Source: a virus. Taken from it: a stretch of DNA of 31,566 nucleotides. The notes under the pieces were generated by a model. It was not told where the DNA came from. It did not search any database and saw nothing but the letters and a program-made list of their open reading frames with translations. The position numbers were made by a program, and so were the translations under genes. Shown here piece by piece: positions 4,831 through 24,340 of the stretch (positions are counted from its first letter, which is position 1; every line of letters starts with the position of its first letter). The stretch is taken from the IMG/VR virus record IMGVR_UViG_3300030105_001312, positions 1 to 31,566 of that record. One strand, written 5' to 3'.

Positions 4831-7293
4831 CTATTCAGGAAATGCTGCACCCGTAGGTTGAATATTAAAGTCTAAGACAATAAACTCAGCCGTTCTAGTT
4901 GGTTGCAAAAATATCTGTCCGTACATGATATTTCTATCAATTACATCTGGAGTATTATTTGATTCATCCATTACTACACGGAATGCTGATAATCCTTGTT
5001 GTGCTCTTACTTGTTCTAAATAAGGATTTGCAATGCTTAAGAATCTTGTTCTTGTAGCCGATGTGTTTTGTTCGAATACTAAAAATTTTGTAGATGAAGC
5101 AATAAACTTCTTCACTGCAATAAGTAAACGACGAACATTAACACGATCTAATGCACTTGGGCGAGCTTGTAGTGTCTTTTGACCCCAAACACAAATTCCT
5201 TCATTAGGGAAGTTTGCTATAGGGTTAACACGGTTTTCATACAACTCATCTCTGTTTGCTTGAGTTAAGTTTTGATATGTTCCAATTGCAGTTGTTAATC
5301 CACCTCTAGTTAATCCTGCTGGGGCATACCATGGAGCAGTAACTGCATCATTAAATGCTAATACTCCTGGTAACACTACTGATGGTGGCACAAATATTGG
5401 TTTATTTTTTGAAACATCAATTATTCTTACCCATGGGTAATATGTTGCTGCATAATTGCTATCAATACTTGTTACTTGTTGAACCACGGTAGCAATATTA
5501 TCTGTCAATGCATTGCTGTCCATAATATAAAATGCATCTTGTCGCTCTTCTACTAAGTTACGAGCTGCACTAGTTACTAATGGATGTATGCTATCAATAA
5601 CACCTGGTGTAATCAACATGTTCATATCATAATAATCAGTGTTACCTAACAATTTAAATGCTTTATTATAAGACTTAGTTCCACCTGTACTTGTTGTGCT
5701 ACAATCAAATCCAAATGTATTAGTAGATTTTATATTTGTTCCTGACAGTTTAGGTAAATTAGGACGAGCTCCATCAAATCCACCTTGCAATGGTACTATA
5801 AATCTTCTAGTAGTAAGAGCAATGTTAGCTGTAAATGTGTTAGCATTTAACACCGTAGTCAATGATCCACTATATGCAGTTGTGGCAGTTGGAAAATCAG
5901 CTTCAGCGTCTTGAAGTATATCTCCTAGATAAAAGTCTGCATTGCTACCAGTAGTACTTCCAGCTGTTGGGGTTGGTGATAAATAATTCAAGTTATTTAA
6001 ATTATCAAAATTAAATCCAAAATAATTTTTACTGTTAAATGTAGTTTGAACTTGTGACGTTCTATTAGACGTAGCTGTAAGATTCAATGAACTACTATAC
6101 ATTGGTATTGGTGATGTCAATGCTTTGTAACCAAATGGTATTAATACTTCACTGTTTGTTTTTCCTGATACACCTGGATCTACTTCTACTCTAATAAATT
6201 TAGATAAATTTGGATAATCTCCATTTACAACTAATTCTCCGTCTGAACTTACTGTTTGGAATCTATCACCAATCACACGGGAAATATATCTAGGTGAATC
6301 TGGATCTAAATTTAAGTTAACAAATGCCTCTACTACATCAGGTGATGCATCTGTATCTTCTGAATCATATGGTGTATTAAAAAGATTATTTGTGTTTACT
6401 CGTCTTATTTCTATAGTAAATGTTCCATATCCATTTGGATCAGAAACTTCGCTAGCTAAACGCACATCTCTAATACCAATTTTAACTTCAGAACTAACCG
6501 ATGTACCATGCGATAACGTGTGAATTTTAAAAAGATTTTTTGCAGTGCTACCAATTTTTTGTGAAGTGATAAATGGTGTATTTGCAGTTTTAAAATCTTG
6601 CACGAATGAATATGCTGCTGATTGTTCCAATGATATAGTTACATCACCTAAATTGTTAAATAATGTAGATGCATTTTTATCTTCATACTGAACATATACT
6701 GGATAATCCAATGATTTTGGAGATCTACCATATGTTTTAGTTATATAGGTATTATCCGTAGATACAATTGACGCAGATACAGAAGCACCATTTCCTGCTA
6801 TGAATGCACTAAATCCTGGTACGGTAGAATCTGTAGCAAAAGTTCCTGAAACTTTAAGTTCGAATGATCCTGACGAATTGTTATTAATTAACGAATCTTC
6901 AAAATAATTTGCATTAACTACACTTCCTACACCTAATACTGCATCAGTTGGATGAAGAAGATGAGTTACTCTTTCTACAGAACCAGATTTTGCAACAACT
7001 GCTAGAGCTCCATTTGGAATAGAATAACCATCTTCATATAAAAGTCTAGTTACTGTTATTACATTTCCATTTCTTAAATAGTCATTGACTACAAATGGAA
7101 CATATGACTCATCTGTATACGATCCGAATATAGATTCAAAATCTCCAAAAGATGTAATTTGGGTTGGTATTAATGCAGGACCTTTTACTGTTGATCCTAC
7201 AATTGCAGCACCAATTTGTGCTACTCCGCCGGCTAAAAACGATTGATCTACCTCATTCGTAAATACACCTGGCGAAACTATTCTTTCTGCCAT
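4831..7293 (-). CDS. Tail sheath protein (gp18-like)
   Basis: 820 residues against 659 in T4; the extra length is in the middle. It forms the contractile sheath. The N-terminus SPGVFTNEVDQSF, then AAIVGSTVKGPALIPTQI and SFGDFESIFGS, is the standard start of phage sheath proteins. The C-terminal part has GICVWGQKTLQARPSALDRV, NVRRLLIAVKKFI and IFLQPTRTAEFIVLDF, the conserved polymerisation domain. The region of about residues 140-480 is a Ser/Thr/Asn-rich insertion with many beta strands, probably the surface-exposed domains. AGGAG seven bases before ATG gives it one of the best SD sites in the window. A single-gene unit with its own element (7319-7327) and terminator. Confidence 0.95.
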   Translation of the reverse strand: MAERIVSPGVFTNEVDQSFLAGGVAQIGAAIVGSTVKGPALIPTQITSFGDFESIFGSYTDESYVPFVVNDYLRNGNVITVTRLLYEDGYSIPNGALAVVAKSGSVERVTHLLHPTDAVLGVGSVVNANYFEDSLINNNSSGSFELKVSGTFATDSTVPGFSAFIAGNGASVSASIVSTDNTYITKTYGRSPKSLDYPVYVQYEDKNASTLFNNLGDVTISLEQSAAYSFVQDFKTANTPFITSQKIGSTAKNLFKIHTLSHGTSVSSEVKIGIRDVRLASEVSDPNGYGTFTIEIRRVNTNNLFNTPYDSEDTDASPDVVEAFVNLNLDPDSPRYISRVIGDRFQTVSSDGELVVNGDYPNLSKFIRVEVDPGVSGKTNSEVLIPFGYKALTSPIPMYSSSLNLTATSNRTSQVQTTFNSKNYFGFNFDNLNNLNYLSPTPTAGSTTGSNADFYLGDILQDAEADFPTATTAYSGSLTTVLNANTFTANIALTTRRFIVPLQGGFDGARPNLPKLSGTNIKSTNTFGFDCSTTSTGGTKSYNKAFKLLGNTDYYDMNMLITPGVIDSIHPLVTSAARNLVEERQDAFYIMDSNALTDNIATVVQQVTSIDSNYAATYYPWVRIIDVSKNKPIFVPPSVVLPGVLAFNDAVTAPWYAPAGLTRGGLTTAIGTYQNLTQANRDELYENRVNPIANFPNEGICVWGQKTLQARPSALDRVNVRRLLIAVKKFIASSTKFLVFEQNTSATRTRFLSIANPYLEQVRAQQGLSAFRVVMDESNNTPDVIDRNIMYGQIFLQPTRTAEFIVLDFNIQPTGAAFPE

Positions 7294-7318
7294 TGTGATT
7301 CTCCTATAATTATTTTCT

Positions 7319-12647: not shown

Positions 12648-13874
12648 TTATCCTATGTATATTTTCAATGGAACTTTTCCTAATATTTCCATTTGCTGTG
12701 TTGCTTCTGTACTTTGTCTAGTTAACATTTGTTCTTTAGTTAACTTATCTAAAAATTCTCGAAGTTGTGTTATTAATGCTTCCTTTTCTGATTGACCTTG
12801 TGTTACCAACTCTGTACCATTTAATGTTACTTCACCATTAGGAATTGGAACATTTGAATATTTACTACGAACATATCCTAATGTTTCTTTGACGCTAGCG
12901 GCACCGTATCTATATATCCAACTACGCCCCATATCATTAATATTAGCGTACTTTTGATATGAATATGGTATATTAGATGCGTCTGACACAACACCGTTTA
13001 GAAGTGCGCTATTACCAAATAACACCCCACTATTAGTTTTTTCTTTTTCGAACATGAATTCGAACCACACTGTATCATAAAATGGTGTAGCTACAGTACC
13101 TTGTGTTCCTGGTACTGGATATAATCTAATATCATCTCCGTGAATTTCAAAAGAAAAATGTGATTTTCTTATTCTATCATTAAATTCTATAGTTTGCAAA
13201 CGAAATAAATCCATATGCAATGGCATCATCATAAAATTGACGGATGGAGAAAATCCTCCAAAGTCAAATGCATCCATCATGTTCTGAGAACCCATCCCAG
13301 TTCCAACAAATGGATCAAAGTATCTAACAATTGCTGGAGGAGGATTATGAAGTACTCGTCGTATTTCAACACCATTTCCGTCAGTTACTTCTATACCTAA
13401 TGATGCAGATACTGCTTCTCTAATGCTATATGTTTGTTGACCATCTTTAACATCTATAGATGCAGAATGCCAACGTACATCGCCACCAGAGTCTGCTTCA
13501 GTACCATATGCTTTTGATAATCTAGTTATGTAACTTAAATTACCACCTACCAATGCTCCAGTAAGTCCGTCGTCAGTTAAAAAGCTAGAACCAGTTTCGA
13601 CACCTAAAGTATTTATTAAATTATTAACAATATTAATTTGATTTACTTGATTTGAATATTCTATTACTGCTGCTTCAAAAGCTGTAAAAAAATTAATATC
13701 AATTAATTCAACATCCATAATAGGATATCCAACATGTTGTGCTGCAAATTTTGCGAATCTATCAGCTTCTGATTGAAATGTAACATCTGCATCAAAAAAT
13801 CCAAATGGTGTTTTTCCAGCAGCAAATGAAGAGCTCCCAGGCCAAATTGGTTTATTTTCTGAATAGTCTGGCAT
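12648..13874 (-). CDS. Neck protein (gp13-like)
   Basis: 408 residues; T4 gp13 has 309. The N-terminal block FAKFAAQHVGYPIMDVELID, then FFTAFEAAVIEYSNQVNQIN, matches the family pattern of a helix with G-x-P, then a helix that follows 'L-x-x-x-x-x-x-A-x-x-x-A-x-x-x-Y'. Central beta-rich region includes GQQTYSIREAV-like and FSFEIHGDDIRLYPVPGTQG. The C-terminus has GRSWIYRYGAASVKETLGYV and a helix LITQLREFLDKLTKEQ. The protein joins the portal vertex to the tail. It opens a four-gene unit (13, 14, 15, small unknown), with AAAGGGA before ATG and an AT-rich element at 13891-13899. Confidence 0.72.
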   Translation of the reverse strand: MPDYSENKPIWPGSSSFAAGKTPFGFFDADVTFQSEADRFAKFAAQHVGYPIMDVELIDINFFTAFEAAVIEYSNQVNQINIVNNLINTLGVETGSSFLTDDGLTGALVGGNLSYITRLSKAYGTEADSGGDVRWHSASIDVKDGQQTYSIREAVSASLGIEVTDGNGVEIRRVLHNPPPAIVRYFDPFVGTGMGSQNMMDAFDFGGFSPSVNFMMMPLHMDLFRLQTIEFNDRIRKSHFSFEIHGDDIRLYPVPGTQGTVATPFYDTVWFEFMFEKEKTNSGVLFGNSALLNGVVSDASNIPYSYQKYANINDMGRSWIYRYGAASVKETLGYVRSKYSNVPIPNGEVTLNGTELVTQGQSEKEALITQLREFLDKLTKEQMLTRQSTEATQQMEILGKVPLKIYIG

Positions 13875-13890
13875 TTTTTATCCCTTTATT

Positions 13891-13899
13891 AATAAATAT
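13891..13899 (-). promoter_or_regulatory. Variant ATATTTATT element before the neck genes
   Basis: The sense strand reads ATATTTATTAATAAAG, 16 bases before ATG 13874. The core differs in the last base from the exact copies. Confidence 0.45.
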
Positions 13900-14564
13900 C
13901 AATACTTTTCATTTAGAAGGTTCAAAATCTCTTCTAAAGATTCATGTCGATGATTATCTGTTAAAATAATTTCATTAACGTACTTAGATTCTTTGATTTT
14001 TGGCACTTCATGTATTGCAGAATCATTTCTAAATTTTAAATCTATTTGATATCTGTCGCCACATAATATCATAATACTACGTTTTCCTAAACGACTTACA
14101 ACCATTTGTAGTTGTTGTTTAGTTAAGTTTTGAAATTCATCTACAATACATATCGAATCATCAAAAGTACGTCCTCGAAAGTGTGCTAATGAAACTAATT
14201 CAATATTTTCTTCCTTTTCCATTTTTTCTAATAGTTCTGGTTTATTGTAAACTTTTCTCATATTACTTCGTATTGGAACTAACCATTCACTCATTTTTTC
14301 TTCTAATGATCCTGGTAAAAATCCATTATCTTCTGTTGATACAGTTGGACGAGTAATTATAATTTTATTAATTTCACGTTTAAAATATTTATCCAATGCT
14401 ACTTGCACCGCTAACAATGTTTTACCACTACCAGCTTTACCTAGTATAAAATTAAATGGAGTTGTTAATATTGCAGCCTTTGCAAGTTTCTGTTCGTCTG
14501 ATAATGTAATTGAAAATCTAATACTATTTTTTGGAGGAGTTTTCACTCTATTTATTGTACCCAT
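13899..14564 (-). CDS. phoH: PhoH-like P-loop ATPase
   Basis: 221 residues. Walker A GKAGSGKT at 42-49, Walker B ICIVDE at about 138-143 followed by FQN, and the PhoH signature ITRPTVSTEDNGFLPGSLEE at 69-88 are all clear. A further motif MILCGDRYQID (about 165-175) fits the sensor region. Phage PhoH proteins are common in marine phages; the activity is ATP hydrolysis with a suspected role in RNA handling, but the true job is unknown. It lacks the KH or PIN domains sometimes fused to bacterial PhoH. It lies between the capsid unit and the neck genes and follows a small gene by 15 bases, with AAGG ahead of ATG. The stop overlaps the neighbouring promoter-like element. Family is secure, function is not. 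Confidence 0.93.
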   Translation of the reverse strand: MGTINRVKTPPKNSIRFSITLSDEQKLAKAAILTTPFNFILGKAGSGKTLLAVQVALDKYFKREINKIIITRPTVSTEDNGFLPGSLEEKMSEWLVPIRSNMRKVYNKPELLEKMEKEENIELVSLAHFRGRTFDDSICIVDEFQNLTKQQLQMVVSRLGKRSIMILCGDRYQIDLKFRNDSAIHEVPKIKESKYVNEIILTDNHRHESLEEILNLLNEKY

Positions 14565-14579
14565 ATTATAATAACCTTG

Positions 14580-14855
14580 TTAACTTAATTTAGTAAGAGT
14601 TGTTTGACGATATGACATATCTTTCAATGTTTCTATTTTACCCATGCATATTTGACGTATTGCTTCAAATGTTTGATTTGCTGGATATGGTGTTAGAACT
14701 TTAATTTTAATTAACTCTTTTTTATTTCCCAAGTCTTGTTCTATATGAACCATTAAAACTAAACGGATAGCTCGTATACGATCTAATACATCTACAAGAC
14801 GACCTTCATATCGAATATCTGTATACATTTCATATTTTATTCTTGGAACTGCCAT
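14580..14855 (-). CDS. Small alpha/beta protein of unknown function
   Basis: 91 residues: MAVPRIKYEMYTDIRYEGRL, then VDVLDRIRAIRLVLMVHIEQ and a pattern KIKVLTPYPANQTFEAIRQI. Strand-helix-strand-helix order suggests a small ferredoxin-like fold, but I do not recognise the family. It is the first gene after the capsid terminator and its ATATTTATA element (14871-14879) and precedes phoH. It has no SD (AAAAAAGAAATAAT before ATG). The pairing with phoH in one transcript suggests they act together, which is inference only. Confidence 0.7.
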   Translation of the reverse strand: MAVPRIKYEMYTDIRYEGRLVDVLDRIRAIRLVLMVHIEQDLGNKKELIKIKVLTPYPANQTFEAIRQICMGKIETLKDMSYRQTTLTKLS

Positions 14856-14870
14856 ATTATTTCTTTTTTA

Positions 14871-14879
14871 TATAAATAT
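14871..14879 (-). promoter_or_regulatory. ATATTTATA element before the phoH unit
   Basis: The sense strand reads ATATTTATATAAAAAA, 15 bases before ATG 14855, directly after the capsid terminator and ACTGTTTTC. Confidence 0.5.
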
Positions 14880-14884
14880 GAAAA

Positions 14885-14919
14885 CAGTAAAAAAGGGGAT
14901 GACCGAAGCCACCCCCTTT
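14885..14919 (-). terminator. Rho-independent terminator after the major capsid gene
   Basis: On the sense strand AAAGGGGGTGGC pairs with GTCATCCCCTTT (two G-U wobbles) around a UUCG-type loop, followed by TTTTTTACTGTT. It is the strongest hairpin in the window and sits 53 bases past the gp23 stop. Confidence 0.9.
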
Positions 14920-14971
14920 AAACTCAAATTATTGATTCTTTGAATTAAATAGTATATATACTAATTAACTA

Positions 14972-16636
14972 TTAAAGAGTCTCTAATCCTTTCACATATA
15001 CTTTTCCGTAGAATTCTGGACGAACTACTTTCTTCGCGTAACGTGTCATAACACCTTTACGTGGAGTGAAGTTTACCGGATCATATACTAATGGAGTCAT
15101 GATAAGAGGTACATATGGAGAGAAAACTGCTCCAGTCTCAAGGAATTGTGCTCCTCTGAATCCCATAAGGATTATATTCTCTTTCATGTATGGGTTTTTG
15201 TAAACTGTGTAACGATTATTGATTGCACCAATTTTCTGTACACCTGCCGCAAATTCCATAGAAGTTCCATCAGTGTCTGCAGCAAATCCAGGAATAGATT
15301 CAAGGATAGTTGCAACTGCAGGAGATGTAACTAAGAAGTTAGCACCACCACGCAATGTTTTTTGATGAATTTTGTTTGAAACTTTTTGCAGTTTAGTACC
15401 TAAAGTTTGGAACCATCCACCTTGAGTGTTATAAAAACCACCAGTAGTAGCAGATGTTTGTGTAAATGCACTAACACCATCATAAACTTCATTGTTTACT
15501 GCTGACCAATACTCAGTAGTTGGAGCAGATGAAATCAACATATCAAGAATCTCTAAATCGATCTCCATTGATACATACTCAGATAACATTGAAGTTAATT
15601 CTGCTTCAGCATCAATTGAGTGATAAGCGTTTAAATCTTGAGCAAACTCAGGAGTCCAAACAGCTTTTAGTTTTCTTGTCTTAGCAACAATTGGCTCAGA
15701 TTGAAGTTCCAAGTTAATTTCTGGAATCTCAATATCAGTACCGTCATCAATACCAGTACCAGAAGCAGAACCTTTAAATGGATCTTTATCTTCAAAGTCA
15801 CCTCTAGTAATGTCAGTAGGTTGTTTGCTATAAGATATATCAGTACCAGTATCAGTAGCAGCTTCTTGAGTTTGATTAGTTGCTGAACCAGATATTACAA
15901 ATACAATGTTTCCACCAGATACCACTGTAAATGCTGGGAATGTTGCTGCAAATTTTCCAGCTGTTGAAGATGTAATTGTAAATGATCTTATTGCTTCTGA
16001 ATCTATTCCAGGTAATGAAGATGTTGCAACTGTTACTGTGTGGAATGCTGTTGCAAAATTACTTAAACTTGTAATTTCAGAATCAAAATTAACAGATGCA
16101 GAAGTTATAGCTGCAACTGTGTTTGCAACGTCAGCTACTGCTACCGTAGGAATAGAATATCCAAATCTACCAGCACCATAAAGACCACCCGTTGGGTTAC
16201 CTGTTACAGATGTAGCACCAAATAGAGAGTCAGCGGCATTTGTAGTACCAAATGGATCACCCGTACGATTGTTGTTGTCATCATCAAATCCAGCAACACT
16301 TGTACCGTATTTAAAGTCTAAATAAAATATTAGACCCGATGGTAAATTCATTGGTTGTACAGAAACAAATTCTTTAGCTGCAAATTCAGCAAAGATTCTT
16401 CTTACCAATGGAAGAGCAACACCAGCCCACTCTTCTGAACCAGCTGCTGTACCTGTAGCAGTTGCTTCTTTTACTAATTGTCTTGCTTGATTTTCAAGCA
16501 ACGTAGCCATTCCGGCTTTGTCAGTCTCGCCTCGGAGACCTTCTAAAAGACCTGTTCTTTCCCATTTAGCAACGTGTTCTTTAACAACCGTTCTTTGAGA
16601 AGCGTCAGGACTTTGTAATAATGAATTAAGGCTCAT
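14972..16636 (-). CDS. Major capsid protein (gp23-like)
   Basis: 554 residues against 521 in T4. HK97-fold shell protein. The N-terminus carries the part expected to be removed on maturation; a likely gp21 cleavage site is QLVKE|ATATG near residue 57 (the T4 protease prefers I/L-x-E). Conserved blocks are WAGVALPLVRRIFAEFAAKE, PMNLPSGLIFYLDFKYG, EPIVAKTRKLKAVWTPEFAQ, AEAELTSMLSEYVSMEIDLE and FLVTSPAVATILE. The stretch near residues 140-260 is low-complexity Ser/Thr/Ala sequence, a surface loop or insertion compared with T4. AAGGGA precedes ATG. It follows gp22 by 31 bases and is closed by a strong terminator, so it shares the gp22 transcript. Confidence 0.95.
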   Translation of the reverse strand: MSLNSLLQSPDASQRTVVKEHVAKWERTGLLEGLRGETDKAGMATLLENQARQLVKEATATGTAAGSEEWAGVALPLVRRIFAEFAAKEFVSVQPMNLPSGLIFYLDFKYGTSVAGFDDDNNNRTGDPFGTTNAADSLFGATSVTGNPTGGLYGAGRFGYSIPTVAVADVANTVAAITSASVNFDSEITSLSNFATAFHTVTVATSSLPGIDSEAIRSFTITSSTAGKFAATFPAFTVVSGGNIVFVISGSATNQTQEAATDTGTDISYSKQPTDITRGDFEDKDPFKGSASGTGIDDGTDIEIPEINLELQSEPIVAKTRKLKAVWTPEFAQDLNAYHSIDAEAELTSMLSEYVSMEIDLEILDMLISSAPTTEYWSAVNNEVYDGVSAFTQTSATTGGFYNTQGGWFQTLGTKLQKVSNKIHQKTLRGGANFLVTSPAVATILESIPGFAADTDGTSMEFAAGVQKIGAINNRYTVYKNPYMKENIILMGFRGAQFLETGAVFSPYVPLIMTPLVYDPVNFTPRKGVMTRYAKKVVRPEFYGKVYVKGLETL

Positions 16637-16667
16637 TTTATTTTCCCTTTTTAGTTTTATTAATAAA

Positions 16668-17759
16668 TTAAATCATACCCGCTAATTTTTTCCAGCGGTT
16701 GGCTTGTTCAAAGCCTTCAGTTAATACTTGTGTAGTCTTTTTGCTTGGAGCAGTTCCTGAAACAGGTTTAGATGCTAATGATCTAGATTCTTTAACCATT
16801 TTCTTTCCTGATTTTCTTGTTTGGAAAGATTCTGCTAAAGTACTAAATACTAATTTTGCTTCTCTTGTGTTTGCGGCTCTGTCAAAGTTTTCGATTACTT
16901 TCATTTTTTGACCTTCGTTAAGATCAAAATTACGGAACAATTTGTTTGTGTAAAGAAGTTTTGCGTTTAAAAGATTAACTTCATTGATAACTGATTTAAG
17001 ATGTTTTACAGTGTTATAAGCTTCTGTTAATTCTGCTTCATAAACTGCATTAGAACTTGAATCAGCAGATGGTTCACCACCATCACCAATTTTTGAAGAA
17101 ACTAAAGCTTCGTCTTTTTTCTTGTCGCCATGCGCCATTTCATCAACGTCTTCTTCTTCTTCTGATAAGATTGCTTCGATAAGTTCATCAATTGATTCAT
17201 GCATATTTTCGTTATGTGCATCTTCATCAACTTCTTCAGAATATGATCCGTCAGCGTTGTTTTTGATTCCCTCAGGCATCATTCCTTCTTCTGGATCCAT
17301 TTCATCATACATCTTTTCGTCTTGCATCATGTCTTCTTCTAACTCTCTGATAATTTCTTCAAGCTCTAAGTCATCTTCTGCACCCATGTCACCCATTTCT
17401 GGTTCTGCACCCATGTCATCCATGTCATCCATTTCTGGTTCCATGTCTGATGTTGCCATGATGTCACCTGTAAAGTCTACATCGCCATCCATGTCAGTGT
17501 CAATTGATACATCACCTACATCCATTGGTTCACCTTCGTCAGCCATAGCATCCATTTCCATTTCATCGCCAGCTGGCTCCATGTCCATTTCATCATCCAT
17601 TTCATCATGTTCAAGCTCGTTCATTAATTCATTTTCGAGCATGTTTTTGATTCTTGGTTGAAAAGCTTCTTCTAGTGCAATCTTTGCATTAGCTAGTGCC
17701 GTTTCTTTAACAGCTTTAGCATCCGCAATTGCTTCTTTTAGCAAATCTGATTTTGCCAT
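16668..17759 (-). CDS. Prohead core scaffold (gp22-like)
   Basis: 363 residues. Residues of about 48-210 are strongly acidic, rich in D, E, M and G, with short repeats (MDDMGAEPEMGDMGAE). The C-terminal third is a helical domain (AYNTVKHLKSVINEVNLLNA, LLYTNKLFRNFDLNEGQKMK and FDRAANTREAKLVFSTLAES) typical of T4 gp22-type scaffolds. It ends FEQANRWKKLAGMI. The scaffold fills the prohead and is degraded by gp21 before DNA packaging. Its place directly upstream of gp23 is the conserved T4 order. AAGGAG lies about seven bases before ATG. The long 5' leader (about 100 bases) is unusual for this window. Confidence 0.88.
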   Translation of the reverse strand: MAKSDLLKEAIADAKAVKETALANAKIALEEAFQPRIKNMLENELMNELEHDEMDDEMDMEPAGDEMEMDAMADEGEPMDVGDVSIDTDMDGDVDFTGDIMATSDMEPEMDDMDDMGAEPEMGDMGAEDDLELEEIIRELEEDMMQDEKMYDEMDPEEGMMPEGIKNNADGSYSEEVDEDAHNENMHESIDELIEAILSEEEEDVDEMAHGDKKKDEALVSSKIGDGGEPSADSSSNAVYEAELTEAYNTVKHLKSVINEVNLLNAKLLYTNKLFRNFDLNEGQKMKVIENFDRAANTREAKLVFSTLAESFQTRKSGKKMVKESRSLASKPVSGTAPSKKTTQVLTEGFEQANRWKKLAGMI

Positions 17760-17785
17760 ACGTTTTTCTCCTTAAATTTTTTTGT

Positions 17786-19046: not shown

Positions 19047-19286
19047 CTAATCATATTGATGCATATCTTTGATTTTTTGTATATATTTTGCGTTAATTTT
19101 TTGTGCTCTGCGTTTCACACTAGGTTTTGTAAATGTTCTATTCTCTTTAACTGCATCCAATGTACCCATACGCTTCATTTTTCGTTTAAACGTTTTCAAC
19201 GCAAACGAAATGTCTTTGTCTACTACCGTAGTTGCTGATGAGTTACCTGGTACAATGCTGTTGTGTTGTTTTTCTTTTTTATTCAT
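19047..19286 (-). CDS. rpsU: Ribosomal protein bS21 homologue
   Basis: 79 residues. The core DISFALKTFKRKMKRMGTLD (24-43), then NRTFTKPSVKRRAQ (49-62) and INAKYIQKIKD (64-74), matches bS21: a helix with ALK-x-FKR, then the F-x-KPS-x-x-RR turn, then a basic helix. The FTKPSV/AKYIQ form is the Bacteroidota type rather than the proteobacterial FYEKPT type (from memory). bS21 sits at the 30S platform near the anti-SD. A 21-23 residue N-terminal extension (MNKKEKQHNSIVPGNSSATT) is longer than in cellular bS21. No SD precedes ATG 19286 (AAATAAGTTAT); the ATG is 11 bases past the stop of the gene before it. Placed inside the late virion cluster, so probably made late. Confidence 0.88.
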   Translation of the reverse strand: MNKKEKQHNSIVPGNSSATTVVDKDISFALKTFKRKMKRMGTLDAVKENRTFTKPSVKRRAQKINAKYIQKIKDMHQYD

Positions 19287-19297
19287 ATAACTTATTT

Positions 19298-19747
19298 TTA
19301 AAATTTTCTACGTTTCATTTGTTTAGGCTGTTTACTTCTTGGTGCTTTAAAAGCAAATTTTACAAGTTCAGGAAGTTGAGCAAAATAGCCTTGAATCTTT
19401 TGTGATTCTGATCCTGGATCTTCTCCTATTCGAAAATAAAAATATCCTGTGCGTCCTGAATTTGATTTTTTATGTGATATAATAGTAAAACCCTTTTTAG
19501 TAGTCCAACGTTGTATGTCTTTAGCTACAGCTGCAGCTTCTTGTGGGTCTCGTAATTGATACATAACATGACCATTATAATCTGATAAGTTATTAATAAG
19601 TTGAGCTTCTTCTAGTTCAGTTTCTGTTATATTAACTTCAACTTCAGGGGCAATCTTATCTTTAATTGCATCATACTTTTCCGCAGAAACATTAATTACT
19701 TCTTGTAAACCAAAAAAGCCTTTACATATGTTTTTGAACTTACTCAT
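19298..19747 (-). CDS. Conserved-looking protein of unknown function
   Basis: 149 residues from ATG 19747; a Met two codons earlier is less likely because AAGGA is spaced six bases from this ATG. N-terminus: MSKFKNICKGFFGLQEVINV. Middle has EAAAVAKDIQRWTTKKGFTI and SGRTGYFYFRIGED, a small alpha/beta domain. The C-terminus is basic (APRSKQPKQMKRRKF). No known motif. It is the gene just before bS21 and shares its transcript. The basic tail suggests nucleic-acid binding, which is weak inference. Confidence 0.65.
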   Translation of the reverse strand: MSKFKNICKGFFGLQEVINVSAEKYDAIKDKIAPEVEVNITETELEEAQLINNLSDYNGHVMYQLRDPQEAAAVAKDIQRWTTKKGFTIISHKKSNSGRTGYFYFRIGEDPGSESQKIQGYFAQLPELVKFAFKAPRSKQPKQMKRRKF

Positions 19748-19766
19748 TATCATCCTTCTTATATTA

Positions 19767-19779
19767 TATAAATAAATAT
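19767..19779 (-). promoter_or_regulatory. Variant ATATTTATTTATA element before the bS21 unit
   Basis: The sense strand reads ATATTTATTTATATAA, 19 bases before ATG 19747. It holds overlapping ATATTTAT and ATTTATA cores. Confidence 0.4.
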
Positions 19780-19792
19780 TTAAACGTCCAAA

Positions 19793-20204: not shown

Positions 20205-20828
20205 TTATACCCTACATTTACCATCTTCACATAGTATCGATGTGATTAGATTATTAACTTTTACGTATTTATTAGTTGTTATATTTTTATCTGTTGATTC
20301 TTTTAATCTACCCATAAAGGCTCCGTGAGTAGACGGATTTGAAACAAAGTCCCAACAGATTAATTCAAAATCATCTTGCACTTCAACAACACCTTCATTG
20401 CGTAGTTCTTTTACACTACCTAATCCTCTACTAGATATACCTAATGTTATACCTTCTTTAAATAGAGCTTTTAATATTTTACCTGATGGTGTATCTAGAA
20501 CTTGCACTGTACCCTTAAGATCATCACCATCCCACCATATTTTTAAAACATTGTGAGAAACATTGTTCAAGTTAACTACACTTGACTCTGGGTGATCTAG
20601 TTCGCCTAATGCTCTGTTTTGATTTATATATTCTTGTTGATATCTTTGACATTCACGCATTAAAATATTTTTAGGATATACTCTACCATTTTGATTTTTA
20701 GCTCCAGCTCTTTGTAAAACGCCTTGCACAATAAATCCACCAGGTACACCATGTTTTGCACCATTTGATTCTGTAAGTGAGCCAACTGGTGTAAATGGCA
20801 TATATTCTACTAGTAATGGTTTTGACAT
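20205..20828 (-). CDS. Prohead core protease (gp21-like)
   Basis: 207 residues, near the 212 of T4 gp21. Serine protease of the herpes/T4 assemblin clan (U9/S80), which cleaves scaffold and capsid precursors in the prohead. Catalytic His lies in ALGELDHPESS and Ser in GITLGISSRGLG; NQNGRVYPKNIL (about residues 39-50) is the standard N-terminal motif. The first residues MSKPLLVEYMPFTP match the family start. ATG 20828 is preferred over an earlier GTG because GGGAGAG ends five bases before it and other family members begin here. It starts just after the end of the preceding gene, with a short overlap of the upstream stop region. Confidence 0.94.
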   Translation of the reverse strand: MSKPLLVEYMPFTPVGSLTESNGAKHGVPGGFIVQGVLQRAGAKNQNGRVYPKNILMRECQRYQQEYINQNRALGELDHPESSVVNLNNVSHNVLKIWWDGDDLKGTVQVLDTPSGKILKALFKEGITLGISSRGLGSVKELRNEGVVEVQDDFELICWDFVSNPSTHGAFMGRLKESTDKNITTNKYVKVNNLITSILCEDGKCRV

Positions 20829-20829
20829 T

Positions 20830-21621
20830 TTACTCTCCCAACGTTCTAACACGTTCTGATATTTTAATTAATCTTTCTGATATCTTTCCTAATGCTTTAC
20901 TGGTGCTTGGACCAAACCCAGAATGAGATATTCCTGATTCTGTTTTTAATCGACTAGTATGTTTAATAGTTTCTTCAATTTCTTTTAATTGTTTAGCTAC
21001 ATTCTTAATAGATGCATTTACTTTTTTAGCTGGACTCATTTTAGAATCACTTAAAGCAAATGTCTTATATCCTTCAATAAGTTGTTCATATTTATGATCC
21101 ATTGCTTCTTGAACTAAGTTATATTCGGTATGAAGTTTAGTTTTTGAAGTTGGCTTATATCCAGTACTTTTATTTATATTGGGATTAGTTCGTTTACTAA
21201 ATGCATTTGGAGTGCTATAAGGTGCTACTCCAGCAGAAGTAGACATTTCATCTAAATGAGCTTCATCATATATACCCTTTAACCATTTAATAGTGTCTGC
21301 ATCTTTATTATACTTGTTACTATAATCAGGATCTTTAAAGAACATTTTAAGAAAATCTTTATAGTCTTTTGAATCTTTTGCTAATCCGTCAATATCTGAG
21401 ATACTAACTCCTGCAGACTTCATTGGTTCATTTGTATTGCCATCTTTATCTAAATCTAAAAAATCTGGTTTTGCATCTTCTTGTTTCAATGCCTTTTTAA
21501 TAGCTCGATCTTTTACACCCATATACTCTTCAGTATCAGATTCTTGTTCACCGTCACCATCCCAATCTCGTTCATCTATAGACTGAAAGCTTTCTTCTAT
21601 TTGTTTTAAGAATGATTTCAT
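20830..21621 (-). CDS. Unknown head-cluster protein with two DxDxDG-type loops
   Basis: 263 residues. Near the N-terminus are two calcium-loop-like stretches, DERDWDGDGEQES and FLDLDKDGNTNEPMKSA, separated by a helix; they look like EF-hand-type or dockerin-type loops (D-x-[DN]-x-[DN]-G). The middle is helical and the C-terminal half has coiled-coil-like helices (SIKNVAKQLKEIEETIKHTS; KISERLIKISERVRTL). A gene with similar DLDxDGN sequence sits near gp20-gp21 in other marine T4-like phages as far as I recall, with no assigned role. Its ATG overlaps the stop of the preceding gene by four bases (ATGA), with AGGG before it. Confidence 0.7.
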   Translation of the reverse strand: MKSFLKQIEESFQSIDERDWDGDGEQESDTEEYMGVKDRAIKKALKQEDAKPDFLDLDKDGNTNEPMKSAGVSISDIDGLAKDSKDYKDFLKMFFKDPDYSNKYNKDADTIKWLKGIYDEAHLDEMSTSAGVAPYSTPNAFSKRTNPNINKSTGYKPTSKTKLHTEYNLVQEAMDHKYEQLIEGYKTFALSDSKMSPAKKVNASIKNVAKQLKEIEETIKHTSRLKTESGISHSGFGPSTSKALGKISERLIKISERVRTLGE

Positions 21622-22510: not shown

Positions 22511-24340
22511 TTATAAAATATTGTTTTCATCTAACATTGTACCAGAATCGTTATCTTTTGATTGTGAATTCATAGTTTCTGTTATAATTTTTTGTCCTTT
22601 TTGTTTCTTAAAATAATTTAATACGGTTTGAGCTTCAGACTTCATTGAAAATTTTCTTTGACGAACATCTGGTTGAAATGTGGTTTTTTGATTTGCAGCA
22701 TTAAATGCTTGATCAATGGTCTTTTTGCCGGTTGGATCCCATCCAAATGCATTTGCATGTTGTCCATATTTAATTCCTTCTTTAGGTCGACCGCCTGGAT
22801 CTTTATCTTCAACTTCGTCAGAACTCATATGCATTGAAGCTAAATCATGCGGTGTACCATATGATGCACCAGTTATAGTAGGATCATTACCCTCTTGCTC
22901 AATTTGATTTTGACGGAATCGTAATTTTAAATCTTCTATCACATTGGTTCTTTCTTGCAACCACTGTTCTTCATTCATGTTGAATATAAATTCATATACA
23001 TATTTATCAGACACTAATTTACTGTCTTTCATTGTATTAGCAAGATTTATTTTTTCATTCATCAATGCTACTTTTTGTTGATCATATATAATAGACGGTG
23101 ATGTTAAAGATAAGTCAAAATTAATTAAATCTTCGCCTTCATACCCTTGTGATGCTAAATGAACAATTGCAATCTTGTAAAGTTCAGAAACTATAATCTT
23201 TTGTATACGTTCTATTGTTCTAGCAAAACGAATATCCATGGATGCTAATGTAGTTTTTCCTTCTACACCTTCACCATATCCTAAAAATGGTTTTGGTATC
23301 TTAAGAGCAGCCATCATTTTATTCTTAACATATTCAATATCATCAGTACCAGTCCATGTCATTCCTGGCAATGTATCAATTTGTGTAGACGACTGACCTC
23401 CACGAACAGGTAGAAAGTAATCTTCAAGCATATTGTTAAGATTAAATTTTAAATTATAATCACCAGTTTTTTGATCTACGTGTGGAATCTTTTTCATTTT
23501 ATTGATGATTTGTTCCATAAATGTGTCAACTTCATTTGGTGGTATATTACCTATATCAATTTTAAATATACGTTTTTCAGGTGCTCGCATTATTCTGTGA
23601 ATAAGCATTGCATCTTCAAGCATTGTTAATTTTTGAAATTCTTGTCTAGCTCCTTCGAGCATTGATCTACCATATGGTAAAAAGTTTGAATCTGATAACA
23701 TTCTGAAATGTGCTATTTCAAAAACATCATACCATTCTTCTGCGTGTGAAATATGTTTAAATTTTATTTTATATTCACCAGTTTGATCATCATATTCTTC
23801 ATAACGTTCAATTTCATAACTAGATAATGGTCTTGCATTAATAATTCCAATACCATCAGCAATATCTAATTTTAAAAAGAAATCGCCATATTTTGTTACG
23901 TTACGAATCCATGACCACATATTAAAGTCAATGTTTAATATGTCATAAAATAAATTATAAAGTATTTTTTGTATTTTACTATCATTTGTTTTAATAGTTA
24001 ATATATCACCAAATTGATCTTCTAATGTAGATTCATCTGAATATATATCTAAAGCTGAATGAATTATTGGATCACGATCCATCATTTCATAATCAGTATA
24101 CAACTGTATACGATTTTGGTGCATATAATAGTTAGAATCATAGCCTCCATGGAGACCACCTATTTTATGTTTATTTGCACCATGTAATCTAGTATATCTG
24201 TCGGCTAATTTAGTAAATGCCATATTACCGTCAGATTGTAATCGATTACTATCAACAACACGAAGTCTATCTTTTCCTATTGTTCGAACTACTACATTCG
24301 TACGAAATAGATTTTGTAAACGTTTTCTTAAGGAAGCCAT
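22511..24340 (-). CDS. Portal protein (gp20-like)
   Basis: 609 residues against 524 in T4; the extra length is at the C-terminus. It forms the dodecameric vertex through which DNA is packaged. Motifs: MDRDPIIHSALDIYSDESTL (about residues 86-105), YGDFFLKLD (about 152), PLSSYEIERYEEYDD (about 172), APEKRIFKIDIGNIPPNEVD (about 253-272) and GGQSSTQIDTLPGMTWTGTD (about 314-333). The C-terminal tail (residues 490-609) is disordered and charged. Its ATG 24340 has no clear SD (AAAAGAAATACTAT). An ATATTTATA element is at 24357-24365. Confidence 0.94.
   Translation of the reverse strand: MASLRKRLQNLFRTNVVVRTIGKDRLRVVDSNRLQSDGNMAFTKLADRYTRLHGANKHKIGGLHGGYDSNYYMHQNRIQLYTDYEMMDRDPIIHSALDIYSDESTLEDQFGDILTIKTNDSKIQKILYNLFYDILNIDFNMWSWIRNVTKYGDFFLKLDIADGIGIINARPLSSYEIERYEEYDDQTGEYKIKFKHISHAEEWYDVFEIAHFRMLSDSNFLPYGRSMLEGARQEFQKLTMLEDAMLIHRIMRAPEKRIFKIDIGNIPPNEVDTFMEQIINKMKKIPHVDQKTGDYNLKFNLNNMLEDYFLPVRGGQSSTQIDTLPGMTWTGTDDIEYVKNKMMAALKIPKPFLGYGEGVEGKTTLASMDIRFARTIERIQKIIVSELYKIAIVHLASQGYEGEDLINFDLSLTSPSIIYDQQKVALMNEKINLANTMKDSKLVSDKYVYEFIFNMNEEQWLQERTNVIEDLKLRFRQNQIEQEGNDPTITGASYGTPHDLASMHMSSDEVEDKDPGGRPKEGIKYGQHANAFGWDPTGKKTIDQAFNAANQKTTFQPDVRQRKFSMKSEAQTVLNYFKKQKGQKIITETMNSQSKDNDSGTMLDENNIL

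Follow-up and report, generated by a model that had tools for sequence, protein, structure and literature searches.

What would a phage gain from carrying its own ribosomal protein bS21 among its head genes, and which messages would ribosomes that take it up prefer? In Bacteroidia ribosomes the anti-Shine-Dalgarno (anti-SD) sequence is hidden by a pocket that bS21, bS18 and bS6 form, and the phage gene considered here appears to be of the Bacteroidia type. It lies at 19047..19286 on the minus strand of the window, by which we mean the whole 31,566-nucleotide stretch of IMG/VR record IMGVR_UViG_3300030105_001312 that was analysed. The open reading frame begins with ATG and is translated into 79 amino acids, of which residues 1-22 form a conserved extension region and residues from about 23 to 75 the core. 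A sequence-only reading had called the product bS21, and this is borne out by PF01165 (Ribosomal_S21), which matches residues 23-68 with 43.9 bits (E 2e-11) against a curated cut-off of 27, and by PHROG 21469, ‘ribosomal protein S21’, as a second family match. On these matches, and on a search of structure chains, the gene encodes a genuine phage bS21. Its AlphaFold model has three core helices (26-40, 42-49 and 57-78) and a low-confidence, unstructured extension.

The assignment to the Bacteroidota type, made in the same reading, is supported as well. Tyr68 of the phage protein pairs in the alignment with Tyr54 of Flavobacterium johnsoniae bS21, a residue reported to be unique to Bacteroidia and to stack on A1534 in the 3' tail of 16S rRNA (McNutt et al., PMC9976891); across 27 relatives the position is Tyr in 26 and Phe in one. 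The top solved relatives by sequence, F. johnsoniae 7JIL (E 1.4e-7) and Porphyromonas gingivalis 9I5V, are both from Bacteroidia, and a five-member phage bS21 profile scores these two chains at 54 and 51 bits, with the next chain at 35. A single profile scan of cellular genome contigs for bS21 yielded one locus, on a Gemmatimonadota contig.

The neighborhood of the gene is that of a T4-like head module. Pfam and PHROG place around it a prohead protease (Peptidase_S77, 20205..20828), the gp23 major capsid protein (MCP, 14972..16636) and the gp20 portal (22511..24340), all three on the same minus strand, along with a terminase and PhoH. A putative scaffold at 16668..17759 is named by its position beside the MCP and has no family match, and a putative tail sheath at 4831..7293 is assigned by gene order; both are also on the minus strand. 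The placement of bS21 inside a virion cluster is thus confirmed, and the terminase, portal, protease and MCP region in which it lies is the arrangement described by Chen et al. 2022. The same placement had been called unusual, which is not supported: bS21 phages in the literature commonly have this gene two to four genes from the prohead protease and MCP (PMC9723584). The gene, its place and its extension all belong to a kind already known, in a T4-like phage that is probably one of Bacteroidota.

A profile scan of IMG/VR for bS21 found 80 loci, among which L014-L084 share the N-terminal extension and contain 45 distinct bS21 start regions. Four large genomes of this group (G014-G017) were found first through the prohead protease, with bS21 not the query, and all of them carry bS21, which therefore looks like a core gene of the lineage. 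The group is one lineage, so that SD use and the extension together amount to a single event and the patterns described below are not independent. The group genomes differ in their tRNA content, with an array of 23 tRNA genes at 12811-17318 of locus L173 (G002), and 4 and 0 in its relatives G015 and G007.

The extension (residues 1-22, codons at 19221..19286 on the minus strand) follows the consensus M-S/N-K-K-Q-K-x-H-x-x-I-V-P-G. All close relatives keep it with the same start, and K6, H8, G14 and V21 of the extension region are invariant in 27 relatives. The uncorrected pN/pS ratio has the same value, 0.48, in residues 2-22 and in the bS21 core, from which it follows that the extension is selected like the core. 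Judged by the shared start and these ratios, the extension is real coding sequence under purifying selection, and what is new here is that the motif M-x-K-K-Q-K-x-H-x-x-I-V-P-G is conserved as strongly as the core itself. The extension had been put at about 21 residues and considered unusual. Its reality and conservation stand, while its net length compared with F. johnsoniae bS21, whose residue 10 pairs with residue 24 of the phage protein, is about 14 residues. Nor is the view of it as unusual supported, since Al-Shayeb et al. (2020, PMC7162821) had already described N-terminal extensions of phage S21 and proposed that they aid binding to the ribosome or the initiation of phage mRNAs.

Directly upstream of bS21 in this phage group lies a partner gene (19298..19753, minus strand) whose product has an N-terminal FKxxYKxFFGLxE motif and a C-terminal ferredoxin-like domain. 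The motif resembles the capsid-targeting peptide of T4 with its [LI]xE site for the prohead protease. Fold matches of this protein to bS6, ACT domains and the internal protein Ip7 are weak. We considered a relationship to bS6 and rejected it: many bS6 chains appear in Foldseek, but none of the PDB matches attains E 0.001 and ACT domains match equally. Such an origin also finds no backing in Pfam or in a search of the genomes with a bS6 profile. A search of the genomes for bS18 also found none. The bS6 of this weak fold match is itself part of the Bacteroidia anti-SD pocket.

The partner gene and bS21 appear to share one promoter-like site, a feature new here, which matches TTGGAC-N17-TATAAT at 19763..19791 on the minus strand. 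The class TTGGA-N17-TATAAT precedes this gene pair in 56 of 62 unique relatives (0.9 in shuffled sequence) and is found before none of the MCP (0/36), protease (0/67), scaffold (0/43) or gene 14580 (0/32) copies; 14 of 38 portal genes match it. The same class occurs before genes for DnaB (3/5), DNA polymerase (2/3), PD-(D/E)XK (3/3) and a metallophosphoesterase (2/3). As the site is the unit's own and its class is seen at replication genes, expression of bS21 need not be late only, and the earlier suggestion that the gene is likely expressed late is weakened accordingly. With promoter classes read from sequence, bS21 seems to be more than a gene carried along with the late cluster. A second element, TATTTATA, lies ahead of the tube, sheath, neck, portal and 14580 genes and at 18 of 62 bS21 units; enriched in the lineage and in immuto, a T4-like Flavobacterium phage, it is a candidate late promoter element. 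There are 13 such sites on the minus strand of the window, close upstream of many genes (for example 30429-30422, 24364-24357, 14878-14871 and 4140-4133).

Start regions were compared by their duplex energy with ACCUCCUUU; the near region ran from -20 to -4, and a stretch farther upstream served as control. One ORF caller was used for all phages, ORFs being called crudely as the longest from the first ATG; energies of -5 kcal/mol or below were counted as SDs, and gene counts refer to unique start regions. In six group phages (the window, G002, G007, G015, G014 and G016), 19-36% of genes reach this threshold in the near region vs 4-8% in the far one (OR 4.2-7.2, p 1e-2 to 1e-6). The same test gives OR 9-12 for T4, HTVC008M and S-PM2, and OR of at most 1 for phages with known Bacteroidia hosts (immuto, crAss001, phi38:1, phi14:2, B124-14, 11b, FCL-2 and phiST) and for the Polaribacter phage P12002S. 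SD enrichment is significant in none of the phages that have a Bacteroidia-like bS21 without the extension (G022, G023, G025, G026, LR756504, LR745206 and LR756501). By permutation, SD-type 5-mers near starts number 16 vs 4.6 and 12 vs 1.1 in crAss001 and B124-14, which are Bacteroides phages that lack bS21. Two loci with another type of bS21 (L086 and L087; IMG/VR 3300028194_000509 and 3300035216_000586) have a longer, different N-terminus and no Tyr54 equivalent, and occur in SD-rich phages. Phages of the L086 type were not counted in favor, as SD use may be ordinary in their host.

Within the group, the SDs are distributed by gene. They lead all copies of the MCP (28/28; AAGGGAA at 16643-16649 in the window), scaffold (29/29; AAGGAGA at 17767-17773), protease (41/41; 20834-20840), sheath (4/4; TAGGAGA at 7300-7306), tube (3/3) and gene 12114 (5/5), with the qualification that the SD of the protease gene reaches into the coding end of the gene before it, which may account for part of its conservation. 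The same genes in immuto, which has no bS21, lack SDs. The bS21 start region of the window, AAATTTTAAAAATAAGTTAT (19287..19306, minus strand), has a duplex energy of +0.1 and no SD; an extended SD of the host type (below -13 kcal/mol) is absent there, and none of the 45 unique relatives has an SD before bS21 even at -5 kcal/mol. The portal gene (0/25) provides a further SD-less contrast within the lineage; the counts are 0/21 for gene 14580 and 1/47 for gene 21618. Chance matches are ruled out by the near/far and permutation controls, and a clean division into early and late genes by SDs found on homologues of RecA, SSB and GroEL, which together with an exonuclease are SD-led in several group genomes. 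At about -5 to -9 kcal/mol, the phage SDs are weaker than that of host rpsU, which lies below -13 kcal/mol (PMC9976891). The finding that is new here, as read from predicted start regions, is that group phages place SDs on their main virion genes and never on bS21 or the portal.

How this pattern is interpreted depends on the host. Tyr54, the closest relatives, DUF4494 and a promoter class shared with immuto, where it occurs 7 times forward vs once in reverse, together point to Bacteroidota. Among 14 control genomes, DUF4494 was found only in Bacteroides; it is present in 4 of 5 group genomes, in immuto and in the phage Mel-JY01. The TTGGA-N17-TATAAT class itself resembles sigma-70 promoters and is against or neutral for a Bacteroidota host. 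Promoters of the Bacteroidota type (TTTG/TAnnTTTG) were sought in the group, where there was no enrichment and none was found; immuto also lacks them, so their absence says nothing about the host. Mel-JY01 (locus L199; PP395634, 100001-149000) has, ahead of its genes, ten TTG-N16 to 22-TAnnTTTG sites of the Bacteroidota promoter type, such as TTGCATAC...CGTATATTTG. Its recorded host is Microcystis elabens, but because it has these sites and DUF4494, and because a photosynthesis gene, sought as a cyanophage marker, was found neither in it nor in the group, its true host may be a member of Bacteroidota in the culture.

The best reading, in our view, is a bS21 for ribosome exchange: the phage protein most likely replaces host bS21 in the 30S platform of a Bacteroidota host. 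That this exchange also alters start-site choice is a tentative proposal to which we give somewhat less than an even chance. In such a scheme, bS21 would be made from an early- or middle-class promoter without need of SD recognition, and its extension, placed close to the 3' end of 16S rRNA and to the exit of the mRNA, would alter the choice of starts such that SD-led virion mRNAs gain. The sequence-only reading had likewise suggested that a phage bS21 could shift which mRNAs host ribosomes prefer, and the gene-by-gene placement of SDs lends this possible effect indirect support. Precedent comes from F. johnsoniae, where the Y54A substitution in bS21, deletion of its C-terminus or depletion of the protein improved translation of strong-SD reporters, although ribosomes without the bS21 C-terminus translated a weak-SD mRNA worse, not better (PMC9976891). 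The least certain step is the opening of the anti-SD for phage mRNAs by the phage protein, which is plausible. The most specific version, that the extended bS21 makes Bacteroidia ribosomes SD-reading with SDs placed on the most abundant virion genes and not on bS21, is doubtful; if true, it would be a mirror image of the host, in which rpsU is the one SD-led gene. Several observations count against an altered start-site choice: Tyr68, whose counterpart contributes to hiding the anti-SD, is kept; F. johnsoniae ribosomes need an extended SD, and those of the phages fall short of its strength; crAss001 and B124-14 have SD-type 5-mers without bS21, though negative in the energy test; and SDs on RecA and SSB leave no clean early/late split.

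The conserved SDs make sense only if some ribosomes read them, and those could be ordinary ribosomes. A host with an accessible anti-SD, from Bacteroidota outside Bacteroidia or from another phylum, would make the SDs unremarkable, with bS21 keeping up supply or competing, and we consider this the main rival reading, a substantial possibility if short of an even chance. In its favor, T4, S-PM2 and HTVC008M have SD-led genes as a matter of course, the group promoter is like that of standard sigma-70 and not TTTG/TAnnTTTG, and some replication genes are SD-led too; the Bacteroidia-type tyrosine, the closest relatives, DUF4494 and the promoter class shared with a Flavobacterium phage speak against it. 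It is also conceivable, if unlikely, that phage bS21 acts just as the host's does, leaving the anti-SD hidden and serving the late replenishment or competition already published, while the SDs are read by bS21-free ribosomes that arise during infection or are ancestral remnants. The retained Tyr54 equivalent fits this, as do the published late co-expression with virion genes (PMC9723584) and the SD-type motifs in two Bacteroides phages without bS21, but invariant MCP and scaffold SDs across divergent phages are difficult to view as remnants, and a promoter-like site belonging to the unit itself speaks against expression that is late only. Packaging of bS21 in the virion with the internal-type protein of 19298, for delivery to the next cell, has been proposed for bS21 (PMC9723584) and would suit a putative transcription unit shared with a protein that has a capsid-targeting-like N-terminus and an [LI]xE site; as the bS21 extension is unlike that N-terminus and has no conserved [LI]xE site, we regard it as very improbable.

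Start-site rewiring of ribosomes by an exchanged bS21 would bear on the question why phages carry bS21 more often than any other ribosomal protein. A bS21 gene that lacks an SD while the main virion genes are SD-led, in a host that probably hides its anti-SD, lends itself to a direct reporter test of such rewiring. Elsewhere among the loci, Vibrio phage 2.275.O (L172) has rpsU directly after an IF-3 gene and before an L7/L12-like gene, possibly a phage translation cassette.

The closest known systems include the Bacteroidetes myoviruses that Chen et al. described in 2022 (PMC9723584), whose bS21 is of the Bacteroidia type with a conserved aromatic residue at position 54, lies in the virion cluster beside terminase, portal, protease and MCP, and is expressed late. 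Their bS21 is on the strand opposite the virion genes, whereas here it shares their strand and has its own promoter-like site, and the text of that study does not report an RBS or SD analysis of phage genes. The rpS21 of the huge phages of Al-Shayeb et al. 2020 resembles ours in its basic N-terminal extension, but the SD analysis there centred on rpS1 phages (PMC7162821), and the huge phages LR756504, LR745206 and LR756501 have, in our analysis, a Bacteroidia-like bS21 without the extension and no significant SD enrichment. The bS21 of pelagiphage HTVC008M, a T4-like phage, was shown to enter Escherichia coli ribosomes (Mizuno et al. 2019, PMC6375957); the protein is of the alphaproteobacterial type, and the phage is SD-rich like T4. 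The annotated RpsU of Mel-JY01 has the same place between prohead protease and MCP, on the same strand, and the MCP, candidate scaffold, sheath and tube genes of that phage are SD-led as in the group; it differs in its N-terminus, in the replacement of Tyr54 by Arg, in an SD also on rpsU and in the lack of a 19298 gene in between. F. johnsoniae bS21 (7JIL) has the same core and Tyr54 and is about 14 residues shorter at its N-terminus, and its gene is the one with an obvious SD (PMC9976891), a pattern that the phages of this lineage reverse.
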